A stretch of DNA of 64,000 nt from positions 1 through 64,000 of the forward strand of contig CAJNOJ010000455.1 in assembly GCA_905250025.1 (NCBI GenBank), given 5' to 3'. Below are positions 1,141-48,607 of this stretch, one piece after another. This DNA is from Adineta ricciae. Taxonomy: Eukaryota; Rotifera; Eurotatoria; Adinetida; Adinetidae. Position numbers and translations under genes: made by a program. Every line of letters starts with the position of its first letter. Position 1 is the stretch's first letter. The notes below the pieces were generated by a model, which did not search any database, was not told where the DNA came from, and was given only the letters and a program-made list of their open reading frames with translations.

Positions 1141-1515
1141 CTAGCGATAAAAGTAAAAGGCGTGACTTCTAGTTGGAGATATAATTAATAAAATCCAATT
1201 CAATTTATATTTCGACAGGAAAAGCTCTTTCGTAAGCGGTTTCAGCAATATGAGTGACTTAGAAATAACAACATTCATTCTCATATAGGCAAAATGATGT
1301 GTAATATACTCGCTTCTTTAGCGTCACTCTCACTCGCAAACATAGCGCCCTCTGTTCCACTGTTTTTTTTTCGGGAAAACCGAAACGACTGATTTTCCGA
1401 CACGTTTTTTCATATCTGTTGGTATTAATACTAAATATAATCGGAATGGATAATCGACTGCACAGACAATGAACTATTGTTACCATTTCTTTGTGCATTG
1501 TTGCTCCATGTCAGA

Positions 1516-1523
1516 TATATAAG
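1516..1523 (+). promoter_or_regulatory. Possible TATA box upstream of the DUF1254 gene
   Basis: TATATAAG lies 29 bases before the signal-peptide ATG at 1552. If used, the leader would be very short. It also argues against the earlier in-frame ATG at 1477, which would lie upstream of the box. The rest of 1141-1476 shows no gene. Confidence 0.3.
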
Positions 1524-1551
1524 GAATAGAAAAATAACGTTTATTTGTACA

Positions 1552-3150
1552 ATGTATTTGCGCACAGTTAGTCTTATCTTTCTGGTGATCGTCGTCAATG
1601 TTGACGCAGGGAAAAGTAAGAAAGTGATTCTTATTCCAAAACAAGCGCGAAATGTAGCAATAGAAGCTTATATCTACGGTTATTCAATAATAACTAGTGA
1701 AATAACTCGCGTACAGATGACTAATGTAAACGAACGGCAAACTTACAAAGCACCTATGGGCCAGTTTATTAATATGCGTCATTATCCATCCGCAAGTTTT
1801 CGTGGTATTACCACACCAAATGCAGATACTCTCTACTCAACAGCGTGGCTTGACCTTGACGATGAACCTTGGGTTTTCTCGCATCCGGATATGGGAAAGC
1901 GATACTATCTTTTTCCTATGTACGAACATTGGATGTCCGTAATCGAATCGCCAGGAACACGCACTACTGGTACAGGTGCTGCTACATACTTGTTGACTGG
2001 TCCGAAATGGAACGGAACATTATCATCACAACTTAAGCAACGAATTACTAAGCATATACGTTCTCCGAGTCGGTATCTGTTTATTCTTGGACGCACATAT
2101 TGTCTGGGCAAGCCGGAAGATTATGTTACTGTACATCGACTTCAAGATCAATACTTCTTGCGCCCACTTAGTGTCTTCAGCAGCAATAAATATCAAACTC
2201 CACAAGAGTATAATCCACCAGTACCAAAGGTTAATCCTAATTATGGTTTTAGCATGACAGATAAAGTGCGTGATGTCATTAATAATATGAATATTACTAC
2301 GTACTTTAACATGTTGGCTATGTTGATGAAGGTGAGTGATGCAACTGGACTAATATACCATTGTCAGCTGCGAGTATCATCAAGATGGAGCTATTAGAAC
2401 TGGAATGTAGATAACTACTGCTACTACGAGAAATTTCACACCAAGATTTCATAGTTCCTTCAGCATTATTCTATGCAATTTTTATCGTCTTTGTAGGATA
2501 ATCCACCTGCAAAAGAAGATGCAGGTATCGTGAAAAAAATGGCTCAGCTCGGCATTGTTCCTGGTAAAACATTCAATTGGAACAATCTCAGTCGTAAACT
2601 TCAAAATGCCATCAAGCCAGTTCCTAAACTTGCTTTTCACAAAATCATATCTTTGGAAAGTAAATCTGGCAAAAATCGAAACGGTTGGATATTTCCAAAA
2701 ATTCCTAACCACTATGGTACTAATTATCTTCTCCGCGCATTCATTGCTGCTTATGGATGGCCAGGTAATCTGCCCGACGATGCTATCTATCTATATACTA
2801 ATGTCGATTCAAATGGAAAGAAGTTGTCAGGAAGATACAACTATACGCTTCGTTTTCCAAAAGATCAAACACCGCCTATCAAAGCATTTTGGTCCATTAC
2901 TATGTACGACCCTGAATATTTCTTTACACCCAATGCATTAAACAAATTCACATTGAGTCCTCGAGATCCATTGATTTACAATACCAAAGATGGATCACTT
3001 GATCTTTATTTTCAGCATGTGGCTCCTGAAGAAAGCAAACAAGCTAATTGGTTGCCAAGTCCTCAAGGCAATTTTGTTCTGATGCTCCGAATGTATTGGC
3101 CGCAGATACAAAATTCAACGTGGACAGTCCCACCTGTGAAGAAGATATAA
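1552..3150 (+). CDS. Secreted DUF1254/DUF1214 protein (bacterial-type), copy A
   Basis: Two exons (1552-2331, 2497-3150; donor GTGAGT, acceptor TTTGTAG) join in frame to give 477 residues. I chose the ATG at 1552 because it starts a clean signal peptide (MYLRTVSLIFLVIVVNVDAG). The N-terminal half has the DUF1254 pattern (EAYIYGYSIITSEITR, TTPNADTLYSTAWLDL). The C-terminal half has the DUF1214 pattern (PPIKAFWSITMYDPEYFF, ending in LMLRMYWPQIQ). Such proteins are common in bacteria, have about this length and have no firmly assigned reaction. An intron plus a eukaryotic secretion signal suggests a horizontally acquired gene that has been domesticated (inference). It converges on the kelch gene; the stop codons are about 260 bp apart. 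A partial second copy lies at 20007-20933. Confidence 0.85.
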
Positions 3151-3372
3151 AATAGAAGATATACGAGAGGAATACTTCGAATGCGCATTTATTTGATTGC
3201 TGTGTTGATAATATCATATTAAAACTTAGATGAAATATTCTGATGTAGTTACTATTGATAGATTTTCCTGTGTTTTCTATTCTAATAAAGACTAGGTTCA
3301 AATTACGAAAATAAATAATAGAATAACATTTCCAATAGATTTTGTACATAAAACTGCTACAATGAATTAGAG

Positions 3373-3386
3373 TTTATTTGAATAAA
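3373..3386. terminator. Back-to-back poly(A) signals of two convergent genes
   Basis: TTTATT at 3373-3378 reads AATAAA on the minus strand, about 40 bases past the kelch stop. AATAAA at 3381-3386 reads on the plus strand, downstream of the DUF1254 gene, which also has an earlier AATAAA at 3294-3299. The same arrangement recurs in block B near 21172-21186. Confidence 0.5.
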
Positions 3387-3413
3387 GCTTTTGATTAACA
3401 AGAGAACTTTACG

Positions 3414-4738
3414 TTAATGTGTTTTCTGTGGTGTATACACTTCCGCACTACTGTAGAAGTCATAACCATTACCATATCCGCCGGTAACTAGTACTTTGCC
3501 GTTCTTAAGCGTATTTTGCGTATGGCCTGCTCGGGAATAATTCATGTCGTCAACAGCTGTCCAATTACCTGTCAATGGATCGTACACTTCAGCACTACTT
3601 GAACTATGAATCGAGCCCTTGTCTGCGCCCGCAACAAGTACTTTGCCATCTTCTAGCAGGGATATAGTAGATTCGTCTCGTTCCTGTGTCATGTTTCCAG
3701 TCAGTGTCCAAATTTTGGTTGATGGATCATACAATTCAGTAGTTTTATGGTCACTATAGCCAGGATGCCATCCACCGGCAACCAAAACCTTTCCATTTTT
3801 CAATACAACTGAAGCCTGATATATGCGAGGATAATTCATGCTAGCACTCAATGTCCATTTTTCTGTCAGGGGGTCATACAACTCACAATTATTGAAATTA
3901 TCAGTAACAGGAGATCCACCAATAACTAATACTTTCCCGTTGTTTAATAATACTGCAGTATGCTGGCTGCGTGTATGATTCATGCTGCCAGTCACTGACC
4001 AACTATTTTTCACCGGATCGTATATTTCGCAGCCATTAGTAGTACTAGTAGAATCATTATCACCGCCAACAATTAATACTTTACCATTTTTTAGAAGAGT
4101 TGCTGTATGCCAGATGCGTTTATACCGCATGTTGGGAATTCTCTTCCATTTTCTTTCTGATGGATCAAACAATTCAGCAGTATTTAAATAGTTTACGGTC
4201 TCATCCTGTCCACCAGTAATCAGCACTTTTCCATTCTCCAAAACAGTCTCTGTGTGCCAACATCGTGAGGCACTCATACTCTCGGTCAGTGTCCAATTTC
4301 CGGTCACTGGATCATACACTTCCGCACTGTTTAAAATGCAAATATAGAACACATCAATGTCCGATTTTTCCTTCAATCATTCAAGCTCTCAGTAAAATAA
4401 TACGTACTCTGCATAGTAGTCAGATCCACCAGCAACCAACAGCTTTCCATCTTTCAATAAAGATGCAGTGTGGTATATACGTACTCGATTCATGCTCTTT
4501 ATGTTAGACCATTCTGAAAAATACTAGTTAAAATACTTTTCTACTTTCGCGCGCGCGAACACAACTCACTGGAAGGCACAGCATCTATGTTATCCAAGTT
4601 TACTGGAACACAATTAGCTAAATCGATCATTAGCATCAACGTCAATGCAAACGCAAAAGCTGTTCAGACAAAAATACGATAGATATGTAATTGTTGCTTT
4701 TGTTGTCGCGACTTACTGTATATTTGACAGTTGCGCAT
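3414..4738 (-). CDS. Secreted kelch-repeat seven-bladed propeller protein, copy A
   Basis: I reconstructed four exons: 4738-4717, 4659-4570, 4513-4408 and 4326-3414, all with GT-AG borders and in frame, giving 376 residues. The tiny first exon supplies the start of a signal peptide (MRNCQIYTFAFALTLML...) ending near ANC. The mature part carries seven kelch motifs, each with GK[VL]L.[AIV][GT]G[GA] followed later by a blade strand such as AEVYDP..GNWT. Seven blades make a complete beta-propeller like the galactose-oxidase/kelch fold. I see no copper-radical catalytic residues, so it is more likely a binding protein. The blades are similar to one another, suggesting expansion by internal duplication. 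Copy B is at 21214-22538. Confidence 0.85.
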
Positions 4739-5055
4739 CTTGCTCTTTCTTCTAACTGTTGTTAGTAAATCAACTGTGTAGCACAAGAAACGTTCTCTTT
4801 TTATAATGTCGGAGTCGATGAAATATTGTTATCTTTTTTTAAACAAATTTTACCTATTCGTGCAAAAAGGTAGACGCATCTTTCCAATCGACTTAATCAA
4901 TTCATCGTATACGAAAATAATATCGATATCACATTAATTCACCAAGATGGTTCTTTAGTTTAATGATTTCGTATTTAAAACAAAAAGAACATTCCTGAAT
5001 GTATGAAATATCAAAGTATCGCAAAGGAATTGAAATTATTGTTTTAAGGATCAAA
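4739..5055. other. Intergenic, kelch promoter side
   Basis: Between the kelch start and the end of the helicase-PARP gene, both on the minus strand. AT-rich; I see no ORF or RNA gene. The equivalent stretch in block B (22539-22916) is about 60 bases longer owing to an insertion near 22670-22730. Confidence 0.5.
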
Positions 5056-8000
5056 TTAAGCTTTGTAAATAATTCTCAGGTATGGCAATGCTTGACCGAA
5101 ACGATAAACGATATATTCCGTATATTTAAATTCGGTTCCTCGTACCGAATGACAACCTTTTGGTGCTGCAGCCAAGTCATTTTTCGTTTTTGCCTCTATT
5201 GATTCTTTGCCTAATGCAACTTTGTTATAAAACATCACACGAGTCTGATCGCTGCCTTCGGGCTTAGTATAATTATGCGATTTCCGAGGATCATCTGCAA
5301 AATAAGCCCCAGCACCTAAACAAAACAAACGCATTACCTTCGTTGCTGTATTTTATACACTTACCCCACGCTCCTGCCGAACTAAAAAATCGATCATCAA
5401 AACCGTTCTCTAAAATACCTCTCATTCCATTGACTTTCGTTCCATGAAACAGTTTCTGTTCGTTCGGGTTTGCTCCTTGGCATTCCTTCGCAATCATTTT
5501 TTTAATCGCTTCGTATGTATCTTCAAGAAGTGGATTTTTAACTTCTTCAATCGATATAATTCGAACAAGTAGACTGATCTTCTTCATTTCATTTTCTAAT
5601 GATTGATACAATGGTGATGTGCCTGGAAGTGGTATGAGAACTGAATAGCAATGCGGTGGTGGCGATGGATTCACATTAATCGGGTCACCGTACTGTTTCC
5701 AACCGCGTTGAACCATTTTCTCGATGCGATCTTTAACAATTCGATCGATTGGGCGAAGAACTCGAAAGCGCCTTTCCATAACATTTTCGACGATTGACTC
5801 TAAATCAATTGAATACGGTGATTGAGTGACATTAATACGCATTCCGAGTTCGCGTGGATAATTTCTCTCTACTGAAAGATTGCTAACGTCAAGATCAATA
5901 CGATCTTGAGTTAATGCTACATGAGGCTCAATAAGATCCATTGTAAATGGTCCAGTTGGAACGTCTTCGTCGATTAATACAATATACCTCCACTTCTGCC
6001 GAAATACTTTGCAAATAATATCAAACTTGTGTAGACGATCTTGAAATTTCTCCATATCAAAGTATTTGTTTAAAGGTAAGTGACAATCTAAATCAGATGG
6101 GACAATCTCTTTTCTAATACCAGGAATATCTTGTCCTTCTTCACCAGGTCGGTATTCAATCCATGCCTTTGGATCATTCTGTAAATTTATTGGTACAAAT
6201 GCTTCATTTCCAACGATCCAATCGCGAACAAAACCACCTTCTAACTTACAATGAAATTGACAGACGGCGATCCATGCTACAACTTCCATACGTGATTCAC
6301 GTGTAGCCTTTTTCCCTTTGACTGCTTTATAAAGCTCAACAAGTGTTCGATTCGGATCCGCAATGCAGGCGATATTTTTCTCAATGTGAGGATATTTACT
6401 GCGTACTTTTGGTTGAAGTAGACGTGGAAGAACACCTAAGATAAACAATGTTCGAATAAAGAAGAATTGAGAAGTTTAGGATCTTACCGGAATTCGGATG
6501 TCGAATAACTACACATCGTTTCAACCAATCTCCGAACCGATCGAATTCTTTTTTCACATTCTCCTGTTCAGAAAGTCGTCCTTCCACTGTGATGTCGCAC
6601 GTTTTTGCCGCGGGATTATTATCGACGGTGATTTTCATTTGTTTCTCAGCTTCCCATCTCCATTGTATCGGTTGAAAAATGTAAATTATTTTCGTCACAC
6701 TTTGAAGGTTTCGTGCCAAATTCTCATATTCAGTAGTTCCTTGTCTACAGCGATTTTCTAATTGAAAGGTTCTAGTAGTGATTAACTCTGAACGTAATTG
6801 AACTTCGTCGTTAAAAACAATTCCAGCTCGGTTTTTTAAAACATACGCAGATTTGTTTTGTATCCAATTAACAAGCGTTGCAACAACCGACCGAATTTTT
6901 GCAAGAGCATTTCCATTTTCTAAGTGATTTTTTTCGTCCGTCGTCAAAAGAAAATGCCGTTCTAATTGATGTTCAATCCACGATGGTTTAAGTTCACCCA
7001 CAAAAGAAATAATCGACGTTGAACGAGCCGCTGAAGTATATAGCACATCTCGTGATAAAACTAAACGTACAGGCGCGTGACTAATCGGTCGGGTCAACGT
7101 CGATTGTAAATCAAGTATAGCGATGTCATTCGTGTCTCGATATCGACCAAATTGATGCGTTCTTTCTTGAATTTCTTTCATTGAAACAAAAACATTGTCT
7201 CCATAGCCTTCTAGCAAAGCTTTAGCGATCGATCTCCAATTTTCTGATCGGATCTGTGACTGTTGACGAAATTGTTGCGACTTGTTAAAGAGTTTTTCTA
7301 AACTCTCATATCTTCTCAGAGCTTGCTTGAGAATATGTCGAATTTTGTCCAACTGCTTTTGTTGACAAATTAAATCCAAATCGATCTTTTGCCCCGTACT
7401 CGATTGCTTCACCAAGAGAATTTCATTCATAACATTTAATAGAGTCATAAAGTCACCATCGGAACTTTTCATCGCTGGCGGAATATCTTTCAATATTGAT
7501 GCTGTATTCAAGCAACCTAAAATCGACGAAAGACAAATCAAATCACGACCACAATCGTATTGTGTGAGAGCTGCCAAAACCGATTTGGACATCGCTATGG
7601 AATTGAAATCAGGTAATTGAGCCAGGGCTCGACCATGCGGAGTGAATCGTTCGCCTGTCGATGTCCTTTCTAACACATCTATAATAGAGAACAGTACACT
7701 TATCGAGAAAATAATTCTTATACTAACTGAGTCGAACGAGTTCTTCTACAATGGTGCCGAGAGCGTTGGTATCTGGTTTATCAGGCAAAAACTGCTGCAT
7801 GTAGTGCAAGCCGTGTCCGATTGTCGACCGTCTGAGAATAAAATCGATATTTGTTAAATCTAATTGGCAAATTTGTGGAATTGGAAAAGGTTGGTCTTCC
7901 ACTTGAAAGTCATACAGAGCATAATACTCCCCATTTTGAGTTCGTCCCAGCCGTCCGAGTCGTTGTTTGATCGTTGATTCAGCAGCTTGAACCTGTTTCA

Positions 8001-11000
8001 AAACAGTTCGCTTCGTCTTCGGATCATAGATTGGTATGTTAATCATTCCGGTGTCAACAACATATTTTAACGATGGAAAAGTCAACGAAGTTTCAGCTAC
8101 CGTTGTAGAAAAGAAGACACTACCATGCTCGATATATGCTTGCTGTTCTGCAGCCGATTGAGATTGAATTAATGGATATCCTTTGATGGTGCCTTGAGTT
8201 AATTGTTCTAATAAACGGCAACATTGATGAACTTCAGTGGTTGAATTAACAAAACATAAAATTTGATCATGTCGTCGGCGCTTTTTGAATAATTCTTGAA
8301 CAATATCTAAAATATTTTCCCTCGGTCTAGAGATTCTTTTCACGTCATGTAATAGACCAATTTGTGGTAGTCGAAATTCTCGTAAACCGAACTGTTGAAA
8401 TAATCTTGGTACAGATGAATTTAGTGTTGCAGAAGAAATAATCAATTTGATCGTTGTTTTTAGTTCCGGTCGAACTGTTAACAACCGAGCTAAGAGAGCT
8501 AAACATAAATCAATATTAATCGACCGTTCATGAACTTCATCAATAAAAAAGACCATCGCCTTTTTCATTTCAGTATAAAGAGGTATGAAATTTGGGTTAT
8601 TCAGAAGACTTTCTCGTAGAAGGCCATCCGTAACATAAACAATCGGAGCATCAGGACGATCACCATCTCCACTAATAGCCCATCCGGCCAGTTGTTCCGA
8701 TGTACCATCTATATCAGTTCGGATCGTTTCATTGACTCGATTTGAAACAGCTGTGCACGGATATCGACGAGGTTGAGTTACCAGTATCCTATCGTAGCCT
8801 TCGGCAACGAGTAAAGCTGGTAACAATGTCGATTTGCCAGATCCTGTTGGGGTCGCAATCGCTGTCACTGTATGCGTCTCGATCATGTTTAAAAGTTTTA
8901 TTGATTCATCAAACAATGGTAATTGTAACAGAAAACATGAGTGATAAATTAAAATTTGCTTTAATAGATCAGGAATTAGTTTCCAATGCTTAACTTCATA
9001 ACCAATAAAATTGGGTTTGGTTTTTAATTGGTTTTTTATGCGATCAAGAAATATGTTCAACGTCTGAATCGATGATGGTCGAGGTCGTTTGTTAAGATGA
9101 GTAAATTGCAAAGTAACATTTTGTTGAATGAATTCTTCCATTGCTTCGTATTTAAACTCTTGAATTTCATTCAGAAATGAATGTTCATCAATGAAACCAT
9201 TTGTAAATTGTCGAAGTTCAACAGATGGTGACAAGAACTGATTACTAATCGCCCGTTCGGTTAACGACGTCGCTTTTGCTCGAATGTAATGATTAAACTT
9301 TGCTCTGTAATCCATCATCTTCGTATTCATTAAACGTTTGAGGATTGCAGTATACTGTCTCCAGCTTTTCGTTTGAACATTGACGTCTCGTAAAGTTTGA
9401 CTAATCGATCGTAATATGCGATTGGAATGTCGCTCGTAATATTCGATACTCGATGTTTGACAGTTGAACAAAGTTAACACACGTTTAAGCATTCCTTGAA
9501 ATGCAACATGGTGTTCTGGTAAACCTTGGATAGTCAATTGATAACCATTGTCCGTTTCTCGAAATTTTACAGTGACAATGCCATGGTGATCGTCTTCTTT
9601 TATACCCGGAGTCGCAGCTCTCAATTGACCAAGGAAATACTCGAACGTCGGTAAAAGAAAGTCATGCATAGCTTCTCGAGGAATTTGATTATATTCGATG
9701 CTTTTGATTTGTTGTTTCATTTTTTGTAGACAGTCGTGTTGTTCTTTTAATGGTTCTAATTCCTTTGTTAAACTATCAATCTTTGCTAATGCAGCTCTCA
9801 CGACTTCTTCTTTTTCCTCTAGTTTCAATGCATGTTCCTGTTCTAGAGCATGGCATCGCGTTTGCAAATTTAATGATTCGACTGTACGAAGAGTTTCGAA
9901 CTCACTGATTTTCGCATGTAATTTTTCGATCTCTTCTTCTGACGTGGATGTTTTTGCACCAGCCAATTGCATCGAAGCTTTTTCATTAGCTTGATTATCA
10001 TCAATATATTGATCGACGTTCATTTCAACTTCTCCATCGCAAGAATTCGGCTCTTCTAAGGCGTCATCTCCTCCATCTTCAACTAAAGACGTTGGCTTTT
10101 CAGGTTGCTGATCATCTTGAACGATATCATGTTCGATTGGAGTTTCATCGTCGTCTTCCAAAGCGAATACTGAGTTTAAAGCTTTCTTCTGATGTTCTAT
10201 GGTTAATAGCATTGGATTAATATTTGATGGAGTTTGAAAGTTATCAATTGGAACAATTCGATGTTCATTATTCGACACTAATTTCGGAATCCATCTTATG
10301 AAACCGGAGATTGTATCATCTTCGTTCTTAAATGTAAAACCCATCAGATCGAATCGAACAGATTGATCAACGAGTGAGAATTCGATGTACTTCCTTCGGT
10401 TATTCATTGCATCATCAAGTCGATCGTTGCTGTTTGCATCACAATTGTACCAAGTATTCAATTGTATGTCTAGTTGACCTTCATCGAGTAGCGATAGATT
10501 TAAAATTTTCATCGACATGGGGTTTTGTTGATCATATTTTCCGTTTGGATGTTCGAGATAGAAAACTTGCCATAGAGAAAAACAATTGAAATTAAGAATC
10601 GATGAACCACGACAACGAACCCATGTAAGATGCTTTCCATATTGAAGAAATCTAATCATGGAAATCGTTTGGGATATATTCCATTGATATTCCACTTGAA
10701 AGTGTTTGTTATCTTTAACCACCATTAATTCATTCAATTGCTCCATTTCGGGTTTATCAAAAGGAAGCCAAGTCTCAGGATAGCAGAATGGCAAGAATTC
10801 CCAAACGCAATCTTGTTTTCGATTTTGATCCATTTCTCGAATCGGATATTCAGGTAAATCTTGTCGTTGTTCGACATAGCCGAGATTTAAAAAATCTTGA
10901 AAATATTCTACCAAATCTGGCCATTTAGTAGCATTCATTATAGGCGTTTCTTCAGCTTGATTTCGACTAAAACAATTCGCACCGTTTTCAGTCAGATATC

Positions 11001-11658
11001 GAACGGTATCTAAATGTCCCCCATAACATGCGCCGTGTAAAGCAGTTGACCCCGCACTTGGATCAGCATTATAATCTGTCGCAGTGATGCTATCCATTTG
11101 AAGAGCTCGTTGGATATGCTGACGATTTGGAGCATCAATAGAACAATGGCATATGCCAAGAAGGTATTTGACCATATCCAATCGGCCGTTTCTTGCAGCA
11201 GAAAAGAGAAGTGTTGTACCCCATGGGCCTGGTTTATCTTTGAATATTGGATATTGTTCAAGGAAGATTTCAACCAATTGCTGATTTCCGTCCCATGCTG
11301 CACGATACGCATCGAGTGCATCTCGAGTGGCTTGAAGATCGTTTCTAAACAGTTCTAAACGATTAACAGTTAGAATCTGTTGGAACTGGAATTGCTCAGT
11401 ATCATAACCATATTCAAGAAGACAATTCGATAAGAATTGACGAAATTTAATATTTAATTTCGGTAGAAATTCCTTAAAACGATTTGCAATCTTCGTTGTT
11501 AATTCTTTTGCGCTTTGTTCTTTATAAGAATTACATGATAATATGTCGATATCAATATTTAATGTAGAATCAGTTTGGACTGAAGTATGCTGACAGTCAA
11601 TATTAATCATAGGAATAATTGTGTCCAAAAACGACCTTAATTCTGCGTCATCATTCAT
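5056..11658 (-). CDS. Ankyrin / DEAH-box helicase / nucleotidyltransferase-like / PARP fusion protein, copy A
   Basis: Four exons (11658-7728, 7678-6488, 6435-5365, 5315-5056), separated by introns of 49-52 bp, join in frame to 2,150 residues. In order: ankyrin repeats (about 110-250); a WWE-like tryptophan-rich stretch (about 280-345); an acidic linker and coiled coil (about 560-650); a DEAH/RHA helicase core with Walker A TPTGSGKS (near 934), DEVH (near 1039), SSATL, and motif VI QRLGRLGRT (near 1234); an HA2-type region (1312-1420); a domain with GGFVRDW (near 1776) and SDLDCHLP (near 1822) resembling the head of CCA-adding/poly(A)-polymerase nucleotidyltransferases; and a C-terminal tankyrase-like PARP domain with HGT (near 2037), GAGAYFAD, S-H-N-Y and TEYIVYR, so the H-Y-E triad is present. 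Expected activities are ATP-dependent RNA or DNA unwinding and ADP-ribosylation. A role in nucleic-acid sensing or defence is inference. Confidence 0.85.
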
Positions 11659-12755
11659 CGCTGCCGTCGTCTGCGTCTAGTCGCGCTGTAACGTAAGTTT
11701 CACTATACTGTTATAGAAAAGAAGAGAAAGATTCCGCACATTCGAAAAATGTTTATTAGCAGAAAGAAAAAAAAAAGATCGTCACACTGGGTTTTTTCAC
11801 GTCAAAAATATAGTCACCGATGTTTTTTTCCAAAAAATTCTTGTTGATGGTATCGGTAACAGCTTTATTTTTCATTTATGCATCCTTTTTTCTGATTTAT
11901 TTGAAATACAGCTGTTGCTGTCGATTTCTTTCATAAAGAAAGATTTGTATGCTATTGAGGGTGAGGATGTGACCCCGCAATTAACGAATAGCTCGATTTC
12001 CCATGTAAACGAAATATACGTTTGTGATGATGGAAGAGAAAACCGGACATCTTGCATTTATGACTAGTTCGCTGGCAACGTTGCTTGTCTCAATTAACAT
12101 CCCATCTGTAATCGATATTATCGATGCTTTTGCAATAAGATATTTTAGGCATCAGTCAAAATCTAAATACTCTGCACTCAATGATATGTGAAAAGCATCG
12201 TCTGTCATTTAAAATTGTATGTTTTTCTGATTTTTCTCAAATAAGCCTATGTAGATCTATGTAAGCGTAGTTGAAACTATAACATTTCGGCTAATTTAAA
12301 TGCATTCGAAGTAGATAAGTTATCTGAATGTACTCCTTATCATATCTGCCGGCGAGGAAGTATTAGTTTGAGCGAAACGCGTTCCCGAAAAGCACTGTAA
12401 GCCTAATATATGTATAGATGAACTTGCTCTGCTTCTAATTAATACCATCATATAAGACAGAATGACTTTTATGGTTATTTTTTCCAATTTGAGGGCATAC
12501 TTATCTTCGTTTCCAATGCAATTGAGAGCATAACAGTTGCAATTCTTTGCCCCATATTTAGGGGCGCACACGGGGTAAACATAAGTGAGCTAGTCTACCT
12601 TTTTCGAAAACATTATTCAATGAATACGTGAATTACAGCTATGAAAAATGTACAGGGAAATTTATTAGGAAATGCTGTCTAGTGGAACTTCTCTCCTCTA
12701 CAATAAATTTCACCACGAGAAAAAAGGTGATAGCAGATAAAAAACGAAATCAGAG
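11659..12755. other. Intergenic between helicase-PARP start and glyoxylate gene end
   Basis: About 1.1 kb. The proximal part is the helicase-PARP promoter region. Short ORFs here are not conserved in frame with the equivalent 29725-30842 region, which is recognisably homologous but carries many more indels than the genes. TTTATT at 12661-12666 is a likely minus-strand poly(A) signal for the glyoxylate gene, about 90 bases past its stop. I see no RNA gene. Confidence 0.5.
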
Positions 12756-15700
12756 TTAATGACCTTCTTGAACCAATTTCTTGTAGGCATCTAAAGTCAA
12801 GAAGTCCTTCAGATTTTTATCGCTAACGAATTTGAACAAAAGATTCGTAGCATCATCCAATCGATTGTGACTTTGAAGCTTTGTGATCCATTTGGCCTTT
12901 TCTTCGTTGATCACGTTTTCAACCATGTTAAGATCAACTGTGCGACCGTCGTCAAGTTGTGCGTTATGGTGCACCCATTGCCAAATTTGAGAGCGACTGA
13001 TTTCTGCGGTTGCAGCGTCTTCCATTAGATTGTATAGAGGTACACAACCTGAAAGAATATGAAAACTTTTATGGTGATGACAGTCGTAATGTCATCATTG
13101 ATTAGCTTCTTACCAGTTCCACGCAACCAAGCTTCCAAGTAACCCAATGTAACATTGATATTATGTCGAAGTCCTGCTTCTGTTCTGCTACCCAAAGGAA
13201 TCTCAATCAAACTCGCTGCCGAAGGATTTACATCGGGTCTGAGACGATCGACTTGATTTGGTTTTCCATTTAAAGTAGCTGCGAATGCTTCGATTGCGAT
13301 GCCAACAAGACCTGGATGAGCAACCCACGTTCCATCGTGACCTTCGTTAGCTTCTCGAACTTTGTCCTAACCGCACTCATAAGATTTATCCAAAGCTTCT
13401 CGGAACTTCACTTACTTCTCGCACGGCCTGCAAAGCTTTGGTATTCTCTTCTGCATTTGATTTGATCGGAATTTGTGCTGCCATTCCTCCCATTGCATGA
13501 GCTCCTCGTTGGTGACAAGCTTTTATCACGGAACGAGAATAGTTTCGCATGAATGGTGTTGTCATTCGAATCTCCGAGCGATTTGGAGTTAAAAATCCAC
13601 GATGATTCTGGAAGGCCTTGATGTACGAGAAAATATAGTCCCAACGACCGCAGTTTAGACCGACGATATGGTCACGAAGAGAATATAAAACTTCATCGAT
13701 TTCATAAGTCAACAGAATGTGTTCGACCAGAACGGTTACCTATAAACACGATTTTGAAAGAAAACACACAGTTGCTTATTTTTCACGGAAGAATTTTAAC
13801 GAAACTGTACTTTAATGGTTCCTCGAGGTATTTTCAGATAATCTTCCGCAGCGTTCAAAACTTCATTCCAAAGTTCAGCTTCGTGGTAGTTTTCCATTTT
13901 CGGAAGATAAAAATATGGTCCAGTACCGTTCCCAAGTAATTTTCTTGCATTATTGAAAACATAAACACCGAAGTCAAAGAGAGATCCAGACATTGGTTCG
14001 CCATCGATTTGAACGTGCAACTCAGGTAAATGCCATCCTCTTGGTCGAACCATGAGAACTGCTGGCTTCGGGCCTTGAAAAAAAAAACATGTACATTAGT
14101 CAAACGATGATCCGAAATAATTTCTTACCAACTTTATACTGTTTTCCACTTTGCGCATCTTCGAAAGAGATTTCACCGCGAATTGCATCATACAGATTTT
14201 TCTGACCTTCGATTAAATTTCTCCATGTAGGTGTTGTCGAATCTTCGAAATCTGCCATATATGTCTTCGCCCCTGAGTTTAGTGCGTTAATAACCATCTT
14301 CCGATCGCATGGACCAGTTATCTCAACTTGACGATCTTGAAGATCCTTGGGAGTTCCTGCAAGCTTACTGCATAAGAAATACTTTAAGCAATTGTAATAT
14401 GTTTACCTAGAATTTTCCAGTTCGTTTTTTTAATATCTCCGGTCGTTGTTAGAAATTTCGGACGTTGTCCTGCATTTAAAAGAAGTTGTCGGGTCTTTCG
14501 AGCTTCTAAGATCTGTTGTCGTTTTTTCTCAAATCGACGATGTAAACTAGCCAAAAACTGGATCGTTTCTGTACTGATTACTTTCTCATCACCTTCTTCT
14601 AAATCCATGGTTAGTTGTACTGAACTGTCCTGAGATACATTCTGCTTCATTCTATTAAAGATGAACCGATTTAATACATATTCGTTTCGTTTATTTTTAT
14701 TAGATTTTTATACAAATAGAAAATACAAGTTCAGTTTCGAGCGTTCACACTTCTGAATGACAATTTTCTGATATGTGAACTTACTGCATAGCAGCTCGCG
14801 CGATAGCTGGTTCCGTTGCTGGTTGTACAGAAATTTGTGGAAGACCATATGGAATAGGTTCTGCCTCTTTCGTGAATTGTGCGGCCTCAGTGGATTCAGA
14901 TAAGGCAAGTGTGCTTGATTTTCCTCCTAAAAGATTTTCATGTGTTACTTCTCTATCGTCTTGTCAAAGTTTTAAATCTTTTCTCTTTAACTCAATCGAG
15001 AAAACTCTTTACCTGTAACAGCCAGCATCACCGTATCGAAATATCCAGTTCCAACTTCACGTTGATGTCGAACAGCCGTATAACCATGTGGTTCCGATTT
15101 AAATTCCGCTTGTTGCAATTCAGAATAGGCAGACATCCCGTAATCCTTGTACTTTCGAGAAAGTTCAAACATTCCGTAGTTAATCGAATGAAATCCGGCT
15201 AAGGTAACGAATTGAAATTTGTAGCCCATGGCACCGAGTTCAGCCTAGAAACGATTAAGCAAATTCCAATAATTTGAAATACAAGTCATTGAAGCTTACC
15301 TGGAATTTGGCAATGGCTTCGGGACTCAAATTTGCTCGCCAGTTGAACGATGGAGAGCAGTTATATGCCATCATCTTTCCTGGAAATTCTTTCTGGATCG
15401 CTTCTGCAAATACTTTCGCATGTTCCATATTCGGTGTCGAAGTTTCCCACCAAAGAAGATCTGAATATGGTGCTGCACTGAGACCGCGTTTGATACAATG
15501 CTGTAATCCTGATCCTTGTTTTAGTCGAAAAAAGCCCTCGGCAGTTCGTCCAGCCAAAGTATCGATAAATTCACAATCGCGTTCGTCGATATTCGATGTT
15601 AAAAGTGTTGCCGATTCTGCATCTGTTCGACTGATGATCACTGTTGGAACACCACAAACATCTGCAGCCAAACGAGCTGCACTTAGATTTCGTACATGAG

Positions 15701-16681
15701 CATTGGTTGGGATCAAAACCTAGAAATTGCCAGATGAATTTGTCTCAGTTAATAGTCCGTATGTTATTACTTTTCCTCCCAAGTGTCCGCATTTCTTTTC
15801 CGAAGCCAATTGATCTTCGAAATGCACACCAGCTGCACCAGCTTCGATGTAGGCTTTCATAATTTCAAAACAGTTCAATGGTCCTCCGAAACCAGCTTCA
15901 GCATCGGCAACAATCGGAACAAACCAATCTCGTGACAAGTTACCCTCAGCATTTTCTATCTGAGAAGCACGTTCTAGAGTTTTGTTCACTCGACGAACCA
16001 TTTCCGGTCCTGAGTTTGATGGATACAGACTTTGATCGGGATACATTGATCCCGCTGTATTTCCATCTGCTGCGATTTGCCATCCTAAAAACACAAACAT
16101 ATCATTTTACATCATCGTTCTGTTTATACAAATTTCACTCTCAATTGAAAACTTTTCGGTTCAAGGAGAGACAACTTACCGGACATGTAAATTGCGTTCA
16201 AGCCGGCGCGAACCATTTGCATAGCTTGATTTCCTGTAATTGCTCCAAGTGAATTGATATAGGGTTCTGTATGTAATAACTTCCATAATCTGTTCGCTCC
16301 ATTCGTCTAAACATAAGAAAAATTTCAAATCAATATCTATTCGATGAATTTTTTATTCACGTTCTACACTCTCGCTTGAATATGAATTAAAACTAGATAT
16401 TTCTCCTATCAGATTCAAACGATTTTCGCTGCGAGATTCGAAAAAAAAAACATTGAGGTTATGTACCTAATCGTATTTATCTAAGAGTATTACTCAAACC
16501 GAAAGAAAGAAGAACGCTTTCTTAGTCACAATTTGTTTTATAAAATACTCACTGCTAATGTATACTCGATCTCCACGCCACTTCGTAGTTGACGAACAAT
16601 TTCAGGCCCATAAACTCGTTTGATTCCATCCCATCGACCAGCCGGTACCTTTCGTATCAGATCATAAAATGCCTTGTTCAT
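12756..16681 (-). CDS. Bifunctional isocitrate lyase - malate synthase, copy A
   Basis: Twelve exons (16681-16553, 16306-16180, 16084-15771, 15719-15300, 15244-15013, 14926-14785, 14651-14407, 14356-14129, 14073-13811, 13739-13416, 13366-13114, 13048-12756) join in frame to 989 residues, close to the roughly 970 of the nematode fusion enzyme. The first half is isocitrate lyase with the catalytic KKCGH signature near residue 185 and [17 protein letters not shown] upstream. The second half is malate synthase ([43 protein letters not shown]). It cleaves isocitrate to glyoxylate plus succinate and condenses glyoxylate with acetyl-CoA to malate: the complete glyoxylate shunt, allowing sugar synthesis from fat. 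Oddity: the exon 6 donor reads GCA|GTAAGT, so intron retention would end the protein at an in-frame TAA just after the lyase half. Copy B is at 30843-34775. Confidence 0.93.
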
Positions 16682-17641
16682 TATGCTGTTGTTTTATAAC
16701 GAAGTGAGTATAGCCAGATATTGATATTCGTGCGTATGATTTTGTAATGCAATTGTTTTCTATCGCAGTACCAAACACTGAAAAATACGTATATTCATAG
16801 CTTACTTATATAGTGACCGATGAGCGTACTTTTTTTTGGTATTCTATTCTCATCTGTCGCATACATTGATCTCGTCGTTTCTGGATAAAAATAGAAGCTC
16901 GGCCGTTCTTATCTTTTAACGTTCTCTTTCTCTTATTTTCGTATCGTACGTGCCCCGTGCTGTACCTTTTTTTTTCTCGTTCTGTCTGTATGACAAAATA
17001 TTAGGCCTTGATTTATGGACTTTCCCTCAATTAGATAGTGTAGATGGCAAAAGGAGCAAAGTACTCCGCTTCGTAAGTACAGTGAACTTTCGATGCTTCT
17101 TCTAGAGTATTTTTTTTATATTGCGACATTCTAAAAGTGAGGTCGAAGTACTAAACACATTCGTATGTAAGACAATATATCCGGTCGTACATTTGTACTG
17201 AATCATGTTTATTTGGAGTTTGGAGCCAGTGTGTATCGGTTAAAAGTACGCACGTCAAGAAAAGTACTGAAACAAGCAAAACAACTGTATAATATATACA
17301 GAATAAAAGGTACAGATGAAACATCGCACAACGAATTACATGCGCTTGTTATTGCCTTTTCAACTGTCGATTCGTATCGGTGAATATCAGATTTGTCTTT
17401 TTATTTCTTTCAAGGTTTCTCATTTGCCCTCATTGAACCAGAACTTCATGATAAGAATGCAAATCTGTTCGAAGATTAGTAGCATTCAAAAATATTTTAT
17501 TTAACAAAAGTCATCAATTAAGCGAAATGAATATCGTGACATTTTAGCCAATATTCGCTATTGAATAACGAGTGCTTCACATCCCATGATCTAGAAGAAT
17601 AGTTTATTCACAATCATGATTCATTTCTCAAAAATAATATT
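16682..17641. other. Intergenic, glyoxylate gene promoter side
   Basis: About 960 bp between the ATG of the lyase-synthase gene and the end of the NACHT gene. It is AT-rich with short T-runs; I see no ORF of note. TTTATT at 17603-17608 is a likely minus-strand poly(A) signal for the NACHT gene. The homologous block B stretch is 34776-35756. Confidence 0.45.
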
Positions 17642-20006: not shown

Positions 20007-20933
20007 GGTTAATCCTAATTATGGTTTTAGCATGACAGATAAAGTGCGTGATGTCATTAATAATATGAATATTACTACGTACTTTAACATGTTGGCTATG
20101 TTGATGAAGGTGAGTGATGCAACTGGATTAATATATCATTGTCAGCTCAGCTGAGAGTATCATCGAGATGGAGCTATTAGACTAGAATGTAAATAACTAC
20201 TGCTACTATTAGAACTTTCATACCAAGCGTTTCATAGTTTCTTCAGCATTATTTTACGCAATTTTTATCGTCTTTGTAGGATAATCCACCTGCAAAAGAA
20301 GATGCAGGTATCGTAAAAAAAATGGCTCAGCTCGGCATTATTCCTGGTGAAACATTCAATTGGAACAATCTGAGTCGTAAACTTCAAAATGCCATCAAGC
20401 CAGTTCCTAAACTTGCTTTTCACAAAATCATATCTTTCGAAAGTAAATCTGGCAGAAATCAAAACGGTTGGATATTTCCAAAAATTCCTAACCACTATGG
20501 TACTAATTATCTTCTCCGCGCATTCATTGCTGCTTATGGATGGCCAGGTAACCTGCCCGACGATGCTATCTATCTATACACTAATGTCGATTCAAATGGA
20601 AAGAAGTTGTCAGGAAGATACAACTATACGCTCCGTTTTCCAAAAGATCAAACACCGCCTATCAAAGCATTTTGGTCCATTACTATGTACGACCCCGAAT
20701 ATTTCTTTACACCCAATGCATTAAACAAATTTACATTGAGTCCTCGAGATCCATTGATTTACAATACCAAAGATGGATCACTTGATCTTTATTTTCAGCA
20801 CGTGGCTCCTGAAGAAAGCAAACAATCTAATTGGTTGCCAAGTCCTCAAGGCAATTTTGTTCTGATGCTCCGAATGTATTGGCCGCAGATACAAAATTCA
20901 TCGTGGACAGTTCCACCTGTGAAGAAGGTATAA
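20007..20933 (+). CDS. Secreted DUF1254/DUF1214 protein, copy B, 5'-truncated
   Basis: The end of exon 1 (20007-20109) and all of exon 2 (20280-20933) are present; the signal peptide and most of DUF1254 are missing because the sequence begins at the N. The remaining protein matches copy A with few substitutions (such as V to I in LGI[VI]PG and K to E in G[KE]TFNW). Splice sites are conserved, and the intron has a small insertion relative to copy A. Confidence 0.85.
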
Positions 20934-22916: not shown

Positions 22917-25900
22917 TTAAGCTTTGTAAATAATTCTCAGGTACGGCAATGCTTGACCGAAACGATAAATGATATATTCCGTATATTTAAATTCGGTTCC
23001 TCGTACCGAATGACAACCTTTTGGTGCTGCAACCAAGTCATTTTTCGTTTTTGCCTCTATTGATTCTTTGCCTAATGTAACTTTGTTATAAAACATCACA
23101 CGAGTCTGATCGCTGCCTTCGGGCTCAGTATAATTATGCGATTTCCGTGGATCATCTGCAAAATAAGCCCCAGCACCTAAACAAAACAAAGGTATTGCCT
23201 TCGTTGCTGTATTTTATACACTTACCCCATGCTCCTGTCGAACTAAAAAATCGATCATCAAAACCGTTCTCTAAAATACCTTTCATTCCATTGACTTTCG
23301 TTCCATGAAACAATTTCTGTTCGTTCGGGTTTGCTCCTTGGCATTCCTTCGCAATCATTTTTTTAATTGCTACGTATGTATCTTCAAGAAGTGGATTTTT
23401 AACTTCTTCAATCGATATAATGCGAACAAGTGGACTGATCTTCTTCATTTCATTTTCTAATGATTGATACAATGGTGATCTGCCTGGAAGTGGTATGAGA
23501 ACTGAGTAGCAATGCGGTGGTGGCGATGGATTGACATTAATTGGGTCACCGTACTGTTTCCAACCGCGTTGAACCATTTTCTCGATGCGATCTTTAACAA
23601 TTCGATCGATTGGGCGAAGAACTCGAAAGCGCCTTTCCATAACATTTTCGACGATTGACTCTAAATCAATTGAATACGGCGATTGAGTGACATTAATACG
23701 CATTCCGAGTTCGCGTGGATAATTTCTCTCTATTGAAAGATTGCTAACGTCAAGATCAATACGATCATGAGTTAATGCTACATGAGGCTCAATAAGATCC
23801 ATTGTGAATGGTCCAGTTGGAACGTCTTCGTCGATTAACACAATATACCTCCATTTCTGCCGAAATACTTTGCAAATAATATCAAATTTGTGTAAACGAT
23901 CTTGAAATTTCTCCATATCAAAGTATTTGTTTAAAGGTAAGTGACAATCTAAATCAGATGGGACAATCTCTTTTTTAATACCAGGAATATCTTGTCCTTC
24001 TTCACCAGGTCGATATTCAATCCATGCCTTTGGATCATTCTGTAAATTTATTGGTACAAATGCTTTATTTCCAACGACCCAATCGCGAACAAAACCACCT
24101 TCTAACTTACAATGAAATTGACAGACGGCGATCCATGCTACAACTTCCATACGTGATTCACGCGTAGCCGTTTTCCTTTTGACTGCTTTATAAAGCTCAA
24201 CAAGTGTTCGATTTGGATCCGCAATGCAGGCGATATTTTTCTCAATGTGAGGATATTTACTACGTACTTTTGGTTGAAGTAGACGTGGAAGAACACCTAA
24301 GATAAACAATGTTCGAATAAAGAAGAATTGAGAAGTCTAGGATCTTACCGGAATTCGGATGTCGAATAACTACACATCGCTTCAACCAATCTCCAAACCG
24401 ATCGAATTCTTTTTTCACATTCTCTTGTTCAGAAAGTCGTCCTTCAACTGTGATGTCACACGTTTTTGCCGCGGGATTATTATCGACGGTGATTTTCATT
24501 TGTTTCTCAGCTTCCCATCTCCATTGTATCGGTTGAAAAATGTAAATCATTTTCGTCACGCTTTGAAGATTGCGTGCCAAATTCTCATACTCAGTAGTTC
24601 CTTGTCCACAGCGATTTTCTAATTGAAAGGTTCTAGTAATGATTAACTCTGAGCGTAATTGAATTTCGTCGTTGAAAACAATTCCAACTCGATTTTTCAA
24701 AACATACGCAGGTTTGTTTTGTATCCAATTAGCAATCGTTGTAACAACCGACCGAATTTTTGTAAGAGCATTTCCATTTTCTAAGTGATTTTTTTCGTCG
24801 GTCGTCAAAAGAAAATGCCGTTCTAATTGTTGTTCAATCCACGATGGTTTAAGTTCACCCACAAAAGAAATAATCGACGTTGAACGAGCAGCCGAAGTAT
24901 ATAGCACATCTCGTGATAAAACTAAACGTACAGGTACATGAGTAATCGGTTGCGTCAATGTTGATTTTAAATCAAGTATAGCGATGTCATTTGTGTCTCG
25001 ATATCGACCAAATTGATGCGTTCGTTCTTGAATTTCCTTCATTGAAACAAAAACATTATCTCCATAGCCTTCTAGCAAAGCTTTGGCGATCGATCTCCAA
25101 TTTCCTGATCGGATCTGTGACTGTTGACGAAATTGTTGTGACTTGTTGAAGAGTTTTTCTAAATTCTCATATCTTCTCAGAGCTTGCTTGAGAATATGTC
25201 GAATTTTGTCCAATTGCTTTTGTTGACAAATTAAATCCAAATCGATCTTTTGTCCCGTGCTCGATTGCTTCACCAAGAGAATTCCATTCATAACATTTAA
25301 CAGAGTCATAAAGTCACCATCAGGACTTTTCATCGCTGGCGGAATATCTTTCAATATTGATGCTGTATTCAAGCAGCCTAAAATCGACGAAAGACAAATC
25401 AAATCACGCCCACAATCGTATTGCGTGAGAGCTGCTAAAACCGATTTGGACATCGCTATGGAATTGAAGTCAGGTAATTGGGCCAGAGCTCGACCATGCG
25501 GAGTAAATCGTTCGCCTGTCAGCGTCCTTTCTAACACATCTATAGTAGAGAACAGTACACTTATAGAGATAATAATTCTTATACTAACCGAGTCGAACGA
25601 GTTCTTCTACAATGGCGTCGAGAGCGTTGGTATCTGGTTTATCAGGAAAATACTGCTGCATGTAGTGCAAGCCGCGTCCGATGGTCGAGCGTCTGAGAAT
25701 AAAATCGATATTTGTTAAATCTAATTGGCAAATTTGTGGAATTGGAAAAGGTTGTGCTTCAACTTGAAAGTCATATAGAGCATAATACTCCCCATTTTGA
25801 GTTCGTCCCAACCGGCCCAGTCGTTGTTTGATCGTTGATTCAGCAGCTCGAACTTGTTTCAAAACAGTTCGCTTCATCTTCGGATCATAAATTGGTATGT

Positions 25901-28900
25901 TAATCATTCCAGTGTCAACAACATATTTTAACGATGGAAAAGTCAATGAAGTTTCAGCTACTGTTGTAGAAAAGAAGACACTGCCATGCTCGATATATGC
26001 TTGCTGTACTGCAGCCGATTGGGATTGGATTAATGGATATCCTTTGATGGTGCCTTGGGTTAATTGTTCTAATAAACGGCAACATTGATGAACTTCAGTC
26101 GTTGAATTAACAAAACATAAAATTTGATCATGTCGTCGGCGCTTTTTGAATAATTCTTGAACGATATCTAAAATATTTTCTTTAGGTCGACAGATTCTTT
26201 TCACGTCGTGTAATAGACCGATTTGTGGTAGTTGAAATTCTCCTAATCCCAACTGTTGATATAATCTTGGTACAGATGAATTTAGTGTTGCAGAAGAAAT
26301 AATCAATTTGATCCTTGTTTTTAGTTCTGGTCGAACTGTTAACAACCGAGCTAAGAGAGCTAAACATAAATCGATATTAATCGACCGTTCATGAACTTCA
26401 TCAATAAAAAACACCATCGCCTTTTTCATTTCAGTATAAAGAGGTATGAAATTTGGATTATTCAGAAGACTTTCTCGTAGAAGGCCATCCGTGACATAAA
26501 CAATCGGAGCATCAGGACGATCACCATCCCCACTAATAACCCATCCGGCCAGTTGTTCCGATGTACCATCTATATCAGTTCGGATAGTTTCATTGACTCG
26601 ATTTGAAACAGCTGTGCATGGATATCGACGAGGTTGAGTTACCAGTATTCTATCGTAGCCTTCAGCAATGAGTAAAGCAGGTAACAATGTCGATTTGCCA
26701 GATCCTGTTGGGGTCGCAATCGCTGTCACTGTATGCGTCTCGATCATGTCTAAAAGTTTTATTGATTCATCAAACAATGGTAATTGTAACAGAAAACATG
26801 AGTGATAAATTAAAATTTGCTTTAATAGATCAGGAATTAGTTTCCAATGTTTAACTTCATAACCAATAAAGTTGGGTTTGCTTTTTAATTGGTTTTTGAT
26901 GCGATCAAGAAATATGTTCAACGTCTGAATCGATGATGATCGAGGTCGTTTGTTAAGATGAGTAAATTGCAAAGTGACATTTTGTTGAATGAATTCTTCC
27001 ATTGCTTTGTATTTTAACTCTTCAATTTCACTCAGAAATGGATGTTCATCAATGAAACCATTTGTAAATTGTCGAAGTTCAACAGATGGTGACAAGAACT
27101 GATTACTAATCGTCCGTTCGGTTAACGACGTCGCTTTTGCTCGAATGTAATGATTAAAATTTGCTCTGTAATTCAGCATCTTCGTATTCATAAAACGTTT
27201 AAGGATTGCAATATACTGTCTCCAGCTTTTCGTTTGAACATTGACGTCTCGTAAAGTTTGACTAATCGAACGTACTATGCGATTGGAATGTCGCTCGTAA
27301 TATTCGATACTCGATGTTTGACAGTTGAACAAGGTTAACACACGTTTGAACATACCTTGAAATGCAACATGATGTTCTGGTAAACCTTGGATAGTCAGTT
27401 GATAACCATTGTCCATTTCTTGAAATTTTACAGTGAAAATACCGTGAATGTCATTTTCTTTTATACCCGGAGTGGCAGCTCTCAATTGACCAAGGAAATA
27501 CTCGAACGTCGGTAAAAGAAAGTCATGCATAACTTCTCGAGGAATTTGATTATATTCGGTGATTTGGATTTGTTTTTTCATTTTTTGTAGACAGTCGTGC
27601 TGTTCTTTTAAGGGTTCTAATTCCTTTGTTAAATGATCTATCTTTGCTAATGCAGCTCTCACAGTTTCTTCTTTTTCCTCTAGTTTCAATGCATGCTCCT
27701 GTTCTAAAGCATGACATTGCATTTGCAAATCTAATGATTCGACTGTACGAAGAGTTTCCAACTTATTGATTTTCGCATGTAATTTTTCGATCTCTTCTTC
27801 TGACGTGGATGTTTTTGCATCGGTCAATTGCACCGAGGCTTTTTCATTAGCTTGATTATCATCAATATATTGATCGACATTCATTTCGACTTCTCCATCG
27901 CAAGGATTCGGCTCTTCTGAGGTGTCATCTCCTCCGTCTTCAACTAAAGACGTTGGTTTTTCAGGTTGCTGATCATGTTGAACGATATCATGTTCAATTG
28001 GAGTTTCATCGTCGTCTTCCGAAGCGAATACTGAGTTTAATGCTTTCTTCTGATATTCTGTGGTTAATGGCATTGGATTAATATTTGATGACGTTTGAAA
28101 GTTATCAATTGGAACAATTCGATGTTCATTATTCGACACTAATTTCGGAATCCATCTTATGAAACCGGAGATTGTACCATCTTCGTTCTTAAATGTAAAA
28201 CTCATCAGATCAAATCGAACAGATTGACCAACGAGTGAGAATTCGATGTACTTCCTTCGGTTATTCATTGCATCATCAAGTCGATCGTTGCTGTTTGCAT
28301 CACAATTGTACCAAGTATTCAGTTGGATATCTAATTGATCTTCATCGAGTAACGATAGATGTGAAATTTTCATAGACATGGGGTTTTGTTGATCATATTT
28401 TCCGTTTTGATGTTGAAGATAGAAAACTTGCCATAGAGAAAAACAATTGAAATTAAGAATCGATGAACCACGACAGCGAACCCATGCAAGATAATTTCCA
28501 TATTGAAGAAATTTAACCATAGAGATCGTTTGGAATATATTCCATTGATATTCCACTTGAAATTGTTTGTTTTCTTTAACTAGCATTAATTCATTCAATT
28601 GCTCCATTTCGGGTTTATCAAAAGGAAACCAAGTCTCAGGATAGCAGAATGGCAAGAATTCCCAAACGCAATCTTGTTTTCGATTTTGATCCATTTCTCG
28701 AATCGGATATTCAGGTAAATCTTGTTGCTCTTCGATATAACCGAGATTTAAAAACTCTTGAAAATATTTTACCAAATCTGGCCATTTAGTAGCATTCATT
28801 ATAGGCGTTTCTTCAGCTTGATTTCGACTAAAACAATTCGCACCGTTTTCAGTCAGATATCGAACGGTATCTAAATGTCCCCCATAACATGCGCCGTGTA

Positions 28901-29724
28901 AAGCAGTTGACCCCGCACTTGGATCAGCATTATAATCTGTCGCAGTGATGCTATCCATTTGAAGAGCTCGTTGGATATGCTGACGATTTGNTAGTAGCAT
29001 TCATTATAGGCGTTTCTTCAGCTTGATTTCGACTAAAACAATTCGCACCGTTTTCAGTCAGATATCGAACGGTATCTAAATGTCCCCCATAACATGCACC
29101 ATGTAAAGCAGTTGACCCTGCACTTGGATCAGCATTATAATCTGTCGCGGTAATGCTATCCATTTGAAGAGCTCGTTGGATATGCTGACGATTTGGAGCA
29201 TCAATAGAACAATGGCATATGCCAAGAAGGTATTTGACTATGTCCAATCGGCCGTTTCTTGCAGCAGAAAAGAGAAGTGTTGTACCCCATGGTCCTGGTT
29301 TATCTTTGAATGTTGGATATTGTTCAAGGAAGATTTCAACCAATTGCTGATTTCCGTCCCATGCTGCACGATACGCATCGAGCGCATCTCGAGTGGCTTG
29401 AAGATCGTTTTTAAACAACTCTAAACGATTAACAGTTAGAATCTGTCGGAAATGGAATTGCTCAGTATCATAACCATATTCAAGAAGACAATTCAATAAA
29501 AACTGACGAAATTTAATATTTAATTTCGGTACAAATTCCTTAAAACGATTTGCAATCTTCGTTGTTAATTCGTTTGTGCTTTGTTCTGCATAAGAATTAC
29601 ATGATAATATGTCGATATCAACATTTAAGTTAGAATCAGTTTGGACTGAAGTATGCTGACAATCAATATTAATAATAAGAATAATTGTCTCCAAAAACGA
29701 TCTTAATTCTGCGTCGTCGTTCAT
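22917..29724 (-). CDS. Ankyrin / DEAH helicase / NTase-like / PARP fusion, copy B (interrupted by assembly N)
   Basis: Exons 29724-25589, 25539-24349, 24296-23226 and 23176-22917 keep the same borders as copy A; exons 2-4 have identical lengths (1191, 1071, 260). Walker A, DEVH, motif VI, GGFVRDW, SDLDCHLP, HGT, GAGAYFAD and TEYI are all conserved. Exon 1 is broken by an N at 28991, around which about 200 bp of ankyrin-coding sequence appears twice. Without that duplicate the frame is continuous, so this is an assembly artefact, not a pseudogene. Substitutions are spread through the coiled coil and acidic linker more than the helicase core, as expected under purifying selection. Confidence 0.83.
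28772..29195. repeat. Overlapping contig ends flanking an N (duplicated ~200 bp)
   Basis: About 28790-28990 and 28992-29195 are the same ankyrin-coding stretch with a few differences. The left version matches block A (10910-11120) without difference from about 28772, while the right version carries its own variants (for example GCACCATG instead of GCGCCGTG). The left contig therefore ends in the other haplotype's sequence. Confidence 0.85.
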
Positions 29725-45098: not shown

Positions 45099-45099
45099 N

Positions 45100-45480: not shown

Positions 45481-45487
45481 TTCAATA

Positions 45488-46496: not shown

Positions 46497-46497
46497 N

Positions 46498-48606: not shown

Positions 48607-48607
48607 N

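Follow-up and report, generated by a model that had tools for sequence, protein, structure and literature searches.

An ankyrin–DEAH helicase–PARP fusion gene family in the rotifer Adineta ricciae, with a possible role in RNA surveillance

Gene structure of the fusion gene

The stretch of Adineta ricciae DNA analysed here (64,000 nt; hereafter the window) contains at positions 5056–11658 a gene (hereafter copy A) that joins ankyrin repeats, a WWE-like region, a DEAH-type helicase, a nucleotidyltransferase-like (NTase-like) domain and a C-terminal PARP domain (Table 1). It consists of four exons on the minus strand, runs from ATG to TAA and, when spliced, gives 6,453 nt that encode 2,150 amino acids with a single terminal stop, exactly the continuous four-exon frame that had been proposed from a sequence-only reading. 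All three introns (i.e. 7727–7679, 49 nt; 6487–6436, 52 nt; and 5364–5316, 49 nt) have GT..AG ends and none has a length divisible by three; the median intron length of A. ricciae is reported to be 55 bp (PMC5916493). Exon 1 lies inside a 1,317-codon frame without stops.

Paralogs in the same genome differ from copy A in their introns. A 1,201-codon frame in C700a spans residues 886–2065 (helicase to PARP start) without introns 1 and 2 of copy A, and a 453-codon frame in C132a spans residues 1709–2151 (NTase to PARP end) without intron 3. C36 carries 19 additional residues where copy A has intron 2, which are perhaps an intron without a stop. The linker between the WWE-like region and the helicase requires another intron in C36, C132a, C132b and C209, with ends that are not fixed, and the helicase/HA2 junction of C608 is ambiguous.

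That separate helicase and PARP genes were merged by a faulty gene model or assembly is very improbable. The window was scaffolded across nine single-N joints, which speaks for such an artefact, but copy A contains no N, and the clearly placed paralog introns are in phase 1, like those of copy A. Furthermore, copy A exon 1, C700a and C132a jointly read every junction in single frames, so that no splicing is needed to establish the fusion. We therefore rejected an artefactual fusion.

Table 1. Positions of features in the window and of the sister loci (copy A numbering for residues).
Feature	Position	Strand	Content or residues	Basis
Exon 1	7728..11658	-	residues 1–1310: ankyrin, WWE-like, coil, helicase core	spliced model, stop-free frame
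Exon 2	6488..7678	-	helicase-associated part and unassigned region, about 1311–1708	Prp43/DHX15-type matches extend into exon 2
Exon 3	5365..6435	-	NTase-like domain and initial part of PARP	conservation in family alignment
Exon 4	5056..5315	-	rest of PARP and stop codon	PARP match 5131–5322
Ankyrin repeats	10966..11304	-	residues 119–231	Pfam Ank_2
WWE-like region	10183..10812	-	about 283–492	weak assignment, PF02825 in relatives
DEAH-type helicase core	7909..8916	-	about 915–1250	Pfam, PDB matches, motifs
NTase-like domain	5684..6433	-	EGGFVRDW, PSDLDCHLP, FTMDLIEP, RIDLDVSNL	assignment by motifs alone
Second copy (B)	22917..29724	-	94% identical to copy A, interrupted by N 28991	
204-bp overlap	28787..29195	.	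repeated either side of N 28991	self-matches
C432	L052:675–6500	+		Helicase_C 9.9e-13, PARP 9.4e-5, zf-CCCH_2 0.0023, WWE 0.076 (last two weak)
C312	L053:1–5268	-	stretch with 3 Ns	Helicase_C 6e-13, PARP 4.1e-9, IBR 2.2e-4
C159	L054:65–4918	+		Helicase_C 3.8e-6, PARP 4.4e-5

Ankyrin, helicase and PARP domains

Pfam matches of copy A to Ank_2 (6.6e-17), Helicase_C (1.8e-8) and PARP (PF00644; 9.8e-21, residues 1986–2128) exceed their cut-offs, and the DEAD match (5e-5) falls slightly below its own. The helicase part matches DEAH helicases in the PDB (best 6.9e-39); the nearest solved helicases to the family, by PDB sequence and Foldseek comparison, are Prp2, Prp22, Prp43, DHX8 and HrpA. Both kinds of alignment extend beyond the helicase core, the Foldseek part on a low-confidence model (pLDDT 54), and Pfam gave no HA2 match in copy A. 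Helicase motifs I, Ia, Ib, II, III, V and VI are all present in copy A, with DEVH instead of DEAH as motif II. Across the 12 sources examined, every one of the nine helicase-bearing loci has motifs Ia, Ib, II, III, V and VI, eight of them also have motif I (the exception being C209), and the PARP H, Y and E positions are conserved in all 11 copies that cover them. Pfam, PDB and motif searches thus confirm the ankyrin, helicase and PARP domains read earlier from the sequence, together with the helicase motifs and the H-Y-E triad.

The label "tankyrase-like", given to the PARP in the same reading, is marginal: tankyrase-1 is the best PDB match (52.9 bits), but only by a few bits over PARP14 (47.2) and PARP12 (46.3), and no SAM domain appears in the Pfam scan of copy A (E up to 1). 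That scan places ankyrin repeats only at about residues 119–245, with no large clusters before the PARP. CCCH zinc finger, macro and IBR domains were not found in copy A by Pfam either. For the predicted structures of copy A residues 90–921 (pLDDT 63.9) and of the C700 exon (pLDDT 54.4), the listed matches were ankyrin and DEAH folds; the models resolved no fold for the NTase-like and WWE-like parts.

WWE-like and NTase-like regions

For the proposed WWE-like region, every test stays below significance: the WWE profile (PF02825) matches 3 of the 14 rows of the family (best 0.0093), and copy A itself has no match. When pieces were tested, the first half matched in two of five (0.0052 and 0.051, below cut-off) and the second half in none of five. 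The structural model that covers this region of copy A is of low confidence (pLDDT 63.9). Predicted strands and helices raise no more than a suspicion of KH-like units.

Four NTase-like motifs (i.e. EGGFxRDW, DLDCHLP, FTMDLIEPH and RIDxDVxNL) are invariant across eight aligned family rows, and the first two are present in all nine copies that cover them. The domain has no significant Pfam or PDB match. Its motif order resembles that of class II CCA-adding enzymes and poly(A) polymerases, in which the motifs are GGxVRD, DxD and an RxDF-x-N-like stretch; it differs in that a long insert separates its first two motifs, and it shows no significant profile similarity to them. Alignment with CCA-adding enzymes (hhalign) gave a score of 19.9 and a probability of 1.2%; the score was 19.8 after removal of the ∼34-residue insert, up to 23.5 after removal of other blocks and up to 19.4 for column shuffles. 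Because the shuffles and the other block removals score as high or nearly so, this comparison does not support kinship with CCA-adding enzymes, and the "CCA-polymerase-like head" suggested earlier is assigned at the level of motifs. The PF19073 (DUF5769) profile matched five of seven NTase rows (best 0.00054), with 18.5 bits in copy A against a cut-off of 26.1; in the own genome it had no match, and neither did the controls of that search. In the own genome, 13 of 16 NTase-like copies adjoin a PARP match (those of C773 and C1031 do not). Among collections without animal genomes, NTase(+PARP) profiles had no match in viral_contigs or genome_contigs, and the NTase-like protein had none in plasmids or phages.

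Paralog family and selection

The own genome (130,461,839 bases in 1,033 contigs) contains paralogous stretches at 29–64% identity, a minimum count since scores were obtained for 22 of 114 candidates. When spliced, the models of A, C700a, C36 and C132a align over their full length and retain the helicase, NTase-like and PARP motifs. Five further copies (C608, C132b, C700b, C186 and C94) have Ns or contig ends and were not used as full-length models; the C608 model, in the wrong frame with 102 stops, was excluded. The C209 model had two stops, and L046:2493–3536 (two stops) was omitted from alignment A2. This locus (L046, on C209) has in-frame stops and two tandem NTase–PARP ends and lacks an exact helicase motif I; it may be a copy in decay or a product of mixed assembly. 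An NTase tree of 11 rows falls into seven lineages, and four of these are close pairs.

Values of dS and ω are 0.116 and 0.244 for A/B (1,973 codons), 0.108 and 0.236 for C700a/b (1,179 codons), and 0.123 and 0.229 for C132a/b (697 codons). Pairwise ω between A and B is below 1 in all regions: 0.16 in the helicase, 0.14 in the helicase-associated part and 0.16 in the NTase-like domain; 0.38 in the PARP, 0.42 in the WWE-like region, 0.41 in the pre-helicase part and 0.31 in the coil. The helicase–PARP fusion is a real gene family with diverged paralogs under purifying selection. The earlier claim of a real gene under constraint is borne out by ω over the A/B codons and by the same domain order in diverged paralogs of the own genome.

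Second copy and window assembly

Positions 2229–20005 align with 20007–28990 plus 28992–38121 at ∼94% identity, with single Ns at the joints. The tip at 28787–28990 is identical to copy A at 204 of 204 positions and to the stretch across the N at 199 of 204, and the adjoining 200-bp blocks are identical to copy A at 183–192 of 200; the tip at 19806–20005 matches its partner at 198 of 200. The dS of A/B resembles that of the two other same-contig pairs. Homologs in A. ricciae are reported to differ by a median of 4.55% (PMC5916493). The second copy probably represents the other haplotype, with contigs joined head to tail by scaffolding, and therefore does not constitute independent proof of the gene. 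An old tandem duplication was set aside as less likely, given the identical or nearly identical tips at the Ns and a dS like that of the other same-contig pairs. The repeat described earlier as intact is real diverged sequence, but it is broken by N 28991 with 204 bp repeated.

Nine single Ns occur in the window (20006, 28991, 43107, 45099, 46497, 48607, 54943, 58265 and 60980). Self-matches reveal repeated sequence around five of them (20006, 28991, 45099, 46497 and 48607), as if overlapping haplotype contigs had been joined unmerged.

The window has other contents. A weak NACHT match (38608–39522; 1.2e-4, below cut-off) is adjoined by weak beta-propeller matches (37009–38577, with a parallel at 17645–18751), and this region is perhaps an NLR-like gene adjoining the fusion gene. 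Pieces of a Ty3-like LTR retroelement (gag, protease, RNase H and integrase matches) lie at 43153–50796 with single-N joints between them. Neighbouring frames at 1441–3147 match DUF1254 (1.4e-40) and DUF1214 (5.8e-33), a pair that we take to be bacterial-type and that was possibly acquired horizontally. Rfam gave no match within the window. TGTGGG arrays, the repeat that also served as built-in control of that search, occur in six contigs, which fits a bdelloid.

Sister architectures in the same genome

The helicase query also matches loci at 31–35% identity (26% at C159) with a PARP match in the same open frame. Of these, C432, C312 and C159 were examined in detail, and C147, C427 and C55 are known from search matches. 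A DEAH helicase and a PARP in a single open frame were borne out at all three loci examined, with the PARP above its cut-off at C312 only. Judged by these matches, the three loci form another class of proteins with a DEAH helicase plus a PARP, diverged from that of copy A.

The ankyrin/WWE-like half also recurs. At C406 (L055, C406:47400–51400), a stretch with 34.5% identity to copy A residues 2–493 is followed downstream, in separate frames, by two Macro matches (2.7e-11 and 1.1e-7) and a PARP match, without a helicase. More WWE-like matches have a PARP match nearby at a second C406 place, C825 and C186:201426, and none is listed for C231. The second class and C406 together suggest that the fusion gene is one product of PARP domain shuffling in this genome, and they link it to macro-PARP-like and ZAP-like domain sets. 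With 125 matches to the PARP family (E ≤ 0.001, each exon piece counted on its own), the PARP repertoire of the own genome is very large.

Comparison with known systems

We found no fusion of ankyrin repeats, DEAH helicase, NTase-like domain and PARP in the open-access literature, in agreement with the earlier statement that no standard family is known to combine a DEAH/HA2 helicase with a C-terminal PARP and a CCA-polymerase-like head; the architecture may be present but unnoticed in databases. The word "helicase" is absent from the main text of a survey of PARPs across life (PMC4245714).

Several known systems share parts of the architecture. (i) Tankyrases (PARP5a/b) share ankyrin repeats and an H-Y-E PARP, whereas the fusion protein has few ankyrin repeats, no listed SAM domain, and added helicase and NTase-like parts. 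(ii) DEAH/RHA helicases (e.g. Prp2, Prp22, Prp43, DHX8 and HrpA) share the core motifs and fold, but the fusion protein has the DEVH motif II and embeds the helicase in a PARP protein. (iii) Macro-PARPs (PARP9/14/15 type) are approached through the N-terminal half shared with C406, whereas the fusion protein itself has no macro domain detected by Pfam. (iv) DEAH-RBR helicases are of the plant DEAH11/12 type, of which, to our knowledge, PARP is not a component; the second class resembles them at L053 (DEAH, IBR and PARP), and the fusion protein differs in having no IBR match. (v) ZAP/PARP13 with DHX30 and DDX17 shares a PARP, possible WWE parts and an RNA-helicase partnership (PMC11414379). ZAP has CCCH fingers and separate helicases; the fusion protein, by contrast, has a built-in helicase and no CCCH match, and its H-Y-E triad is counted as a further difference.

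Possible functions

In vertebrates, similar tasks are divided between ZAP/PARP13 and helicase cofactors (e.g. DHX30 and DDX17). The fusion protein may sense unwanted RNA by itself and mark this RNA or its neighbours. Our best explanation, held tentatively and at somewhat less than even odds, is a single-chain RNA-surveillance ADP-ribosyltransferase resembling ZAP plus a helicase cofactor. In such a protein the helicase would engage foreign or aberrant RNA, and RNA binding or translocation would release the C-terminal PARP, which would consume NAD+ and attach ADP-ribose to its own chain, to bound proteins or to RNA. The WWE-like part would read the ADP-ribose produced, the ankyrin repeats would recruit targets, and the NTase-like domain might tail RNA or merely bind nucleotide. 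We infer the RNA ligand, activation, targets and defence role from (i) the domains and motifs, the full-length conservation of A, C700a, C36 and C132a, and ω of 0.23–0.24 in three close pairs; (ii) the recurrence of DEAH plus PARP as a second class and of the ankyrin/WWE-like half beside Macro and PARP matches; and (iii) the association of ZAP with DHX30, whose loss lowers ZAP antiviral activity, so that ZAP requires it for full activity (PMC11414379). The non-significant WWE and NTase assignments and the missing CCCH and macro matches count against RNA surveillance. The role suggested earlier, an ADP-ribosylating nucleic-acid sensor or a transposon-control factor, is likewise inferred.

The main alternative, which we consider less likely, is a PARP of the DNA-damage or desiccation response: one of a large PARP set, it would be activated when DNA breaks or the animal rehydrates and would signal repair, with the helicase acting on R-loops or damaged nucleic acid to remodel them. 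In Adineta vaga, 17 PARP genes are reported to be over-expressed following radiation and nine following rehydration (PMC10809525), and such induction in bdelloids fits this alternative and speaks against RNA surveillance; the 125 PARP matches noted above also favour it. No promoter stress motif is described in that paper. Against the alternative, the matched DEAH/RHA helicases, by their names, act mainly on RNA, and Pfam lists no PARP1-type zinc finger, WGR or regulatory domain in copy A. The same nearest solved helicases could suit housekeeping RNA processing (e.g. splicing or ribosome assembly) with the PARP regulating the helicase, but several diverged paralogs, some of them broken, and shuffled domains are unlike a conserved housekeeping factor, and we consider this role improbable. 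Bolder than the RNA-surveillance explanation, and a distinctly long shot, would be a one-molecule RNA-marking machine, in which the DEAH motor feeds RNA to the built-in nucleotidyltransferase and PARP, tailing and/or ADP-ribosylation then falls on foreign RNA or the proteins bound to it, and the WWE-like part reads the mark; it would be one of at least two classes of DEAH plus PARP fusion in the genome of one animal.

The fusion brings to light an NTase-like domain that is conserved and has no family assignment. Fused proteins often reveal partners that cooperate elsewhere, and a DEAH helicase, a PARP and an ankyrin/WWE-like half in one chain offer a direct, testable case for cooperation between RNA unwinding and ADP-ribosylation, as proposed for ZAP and DHX30.
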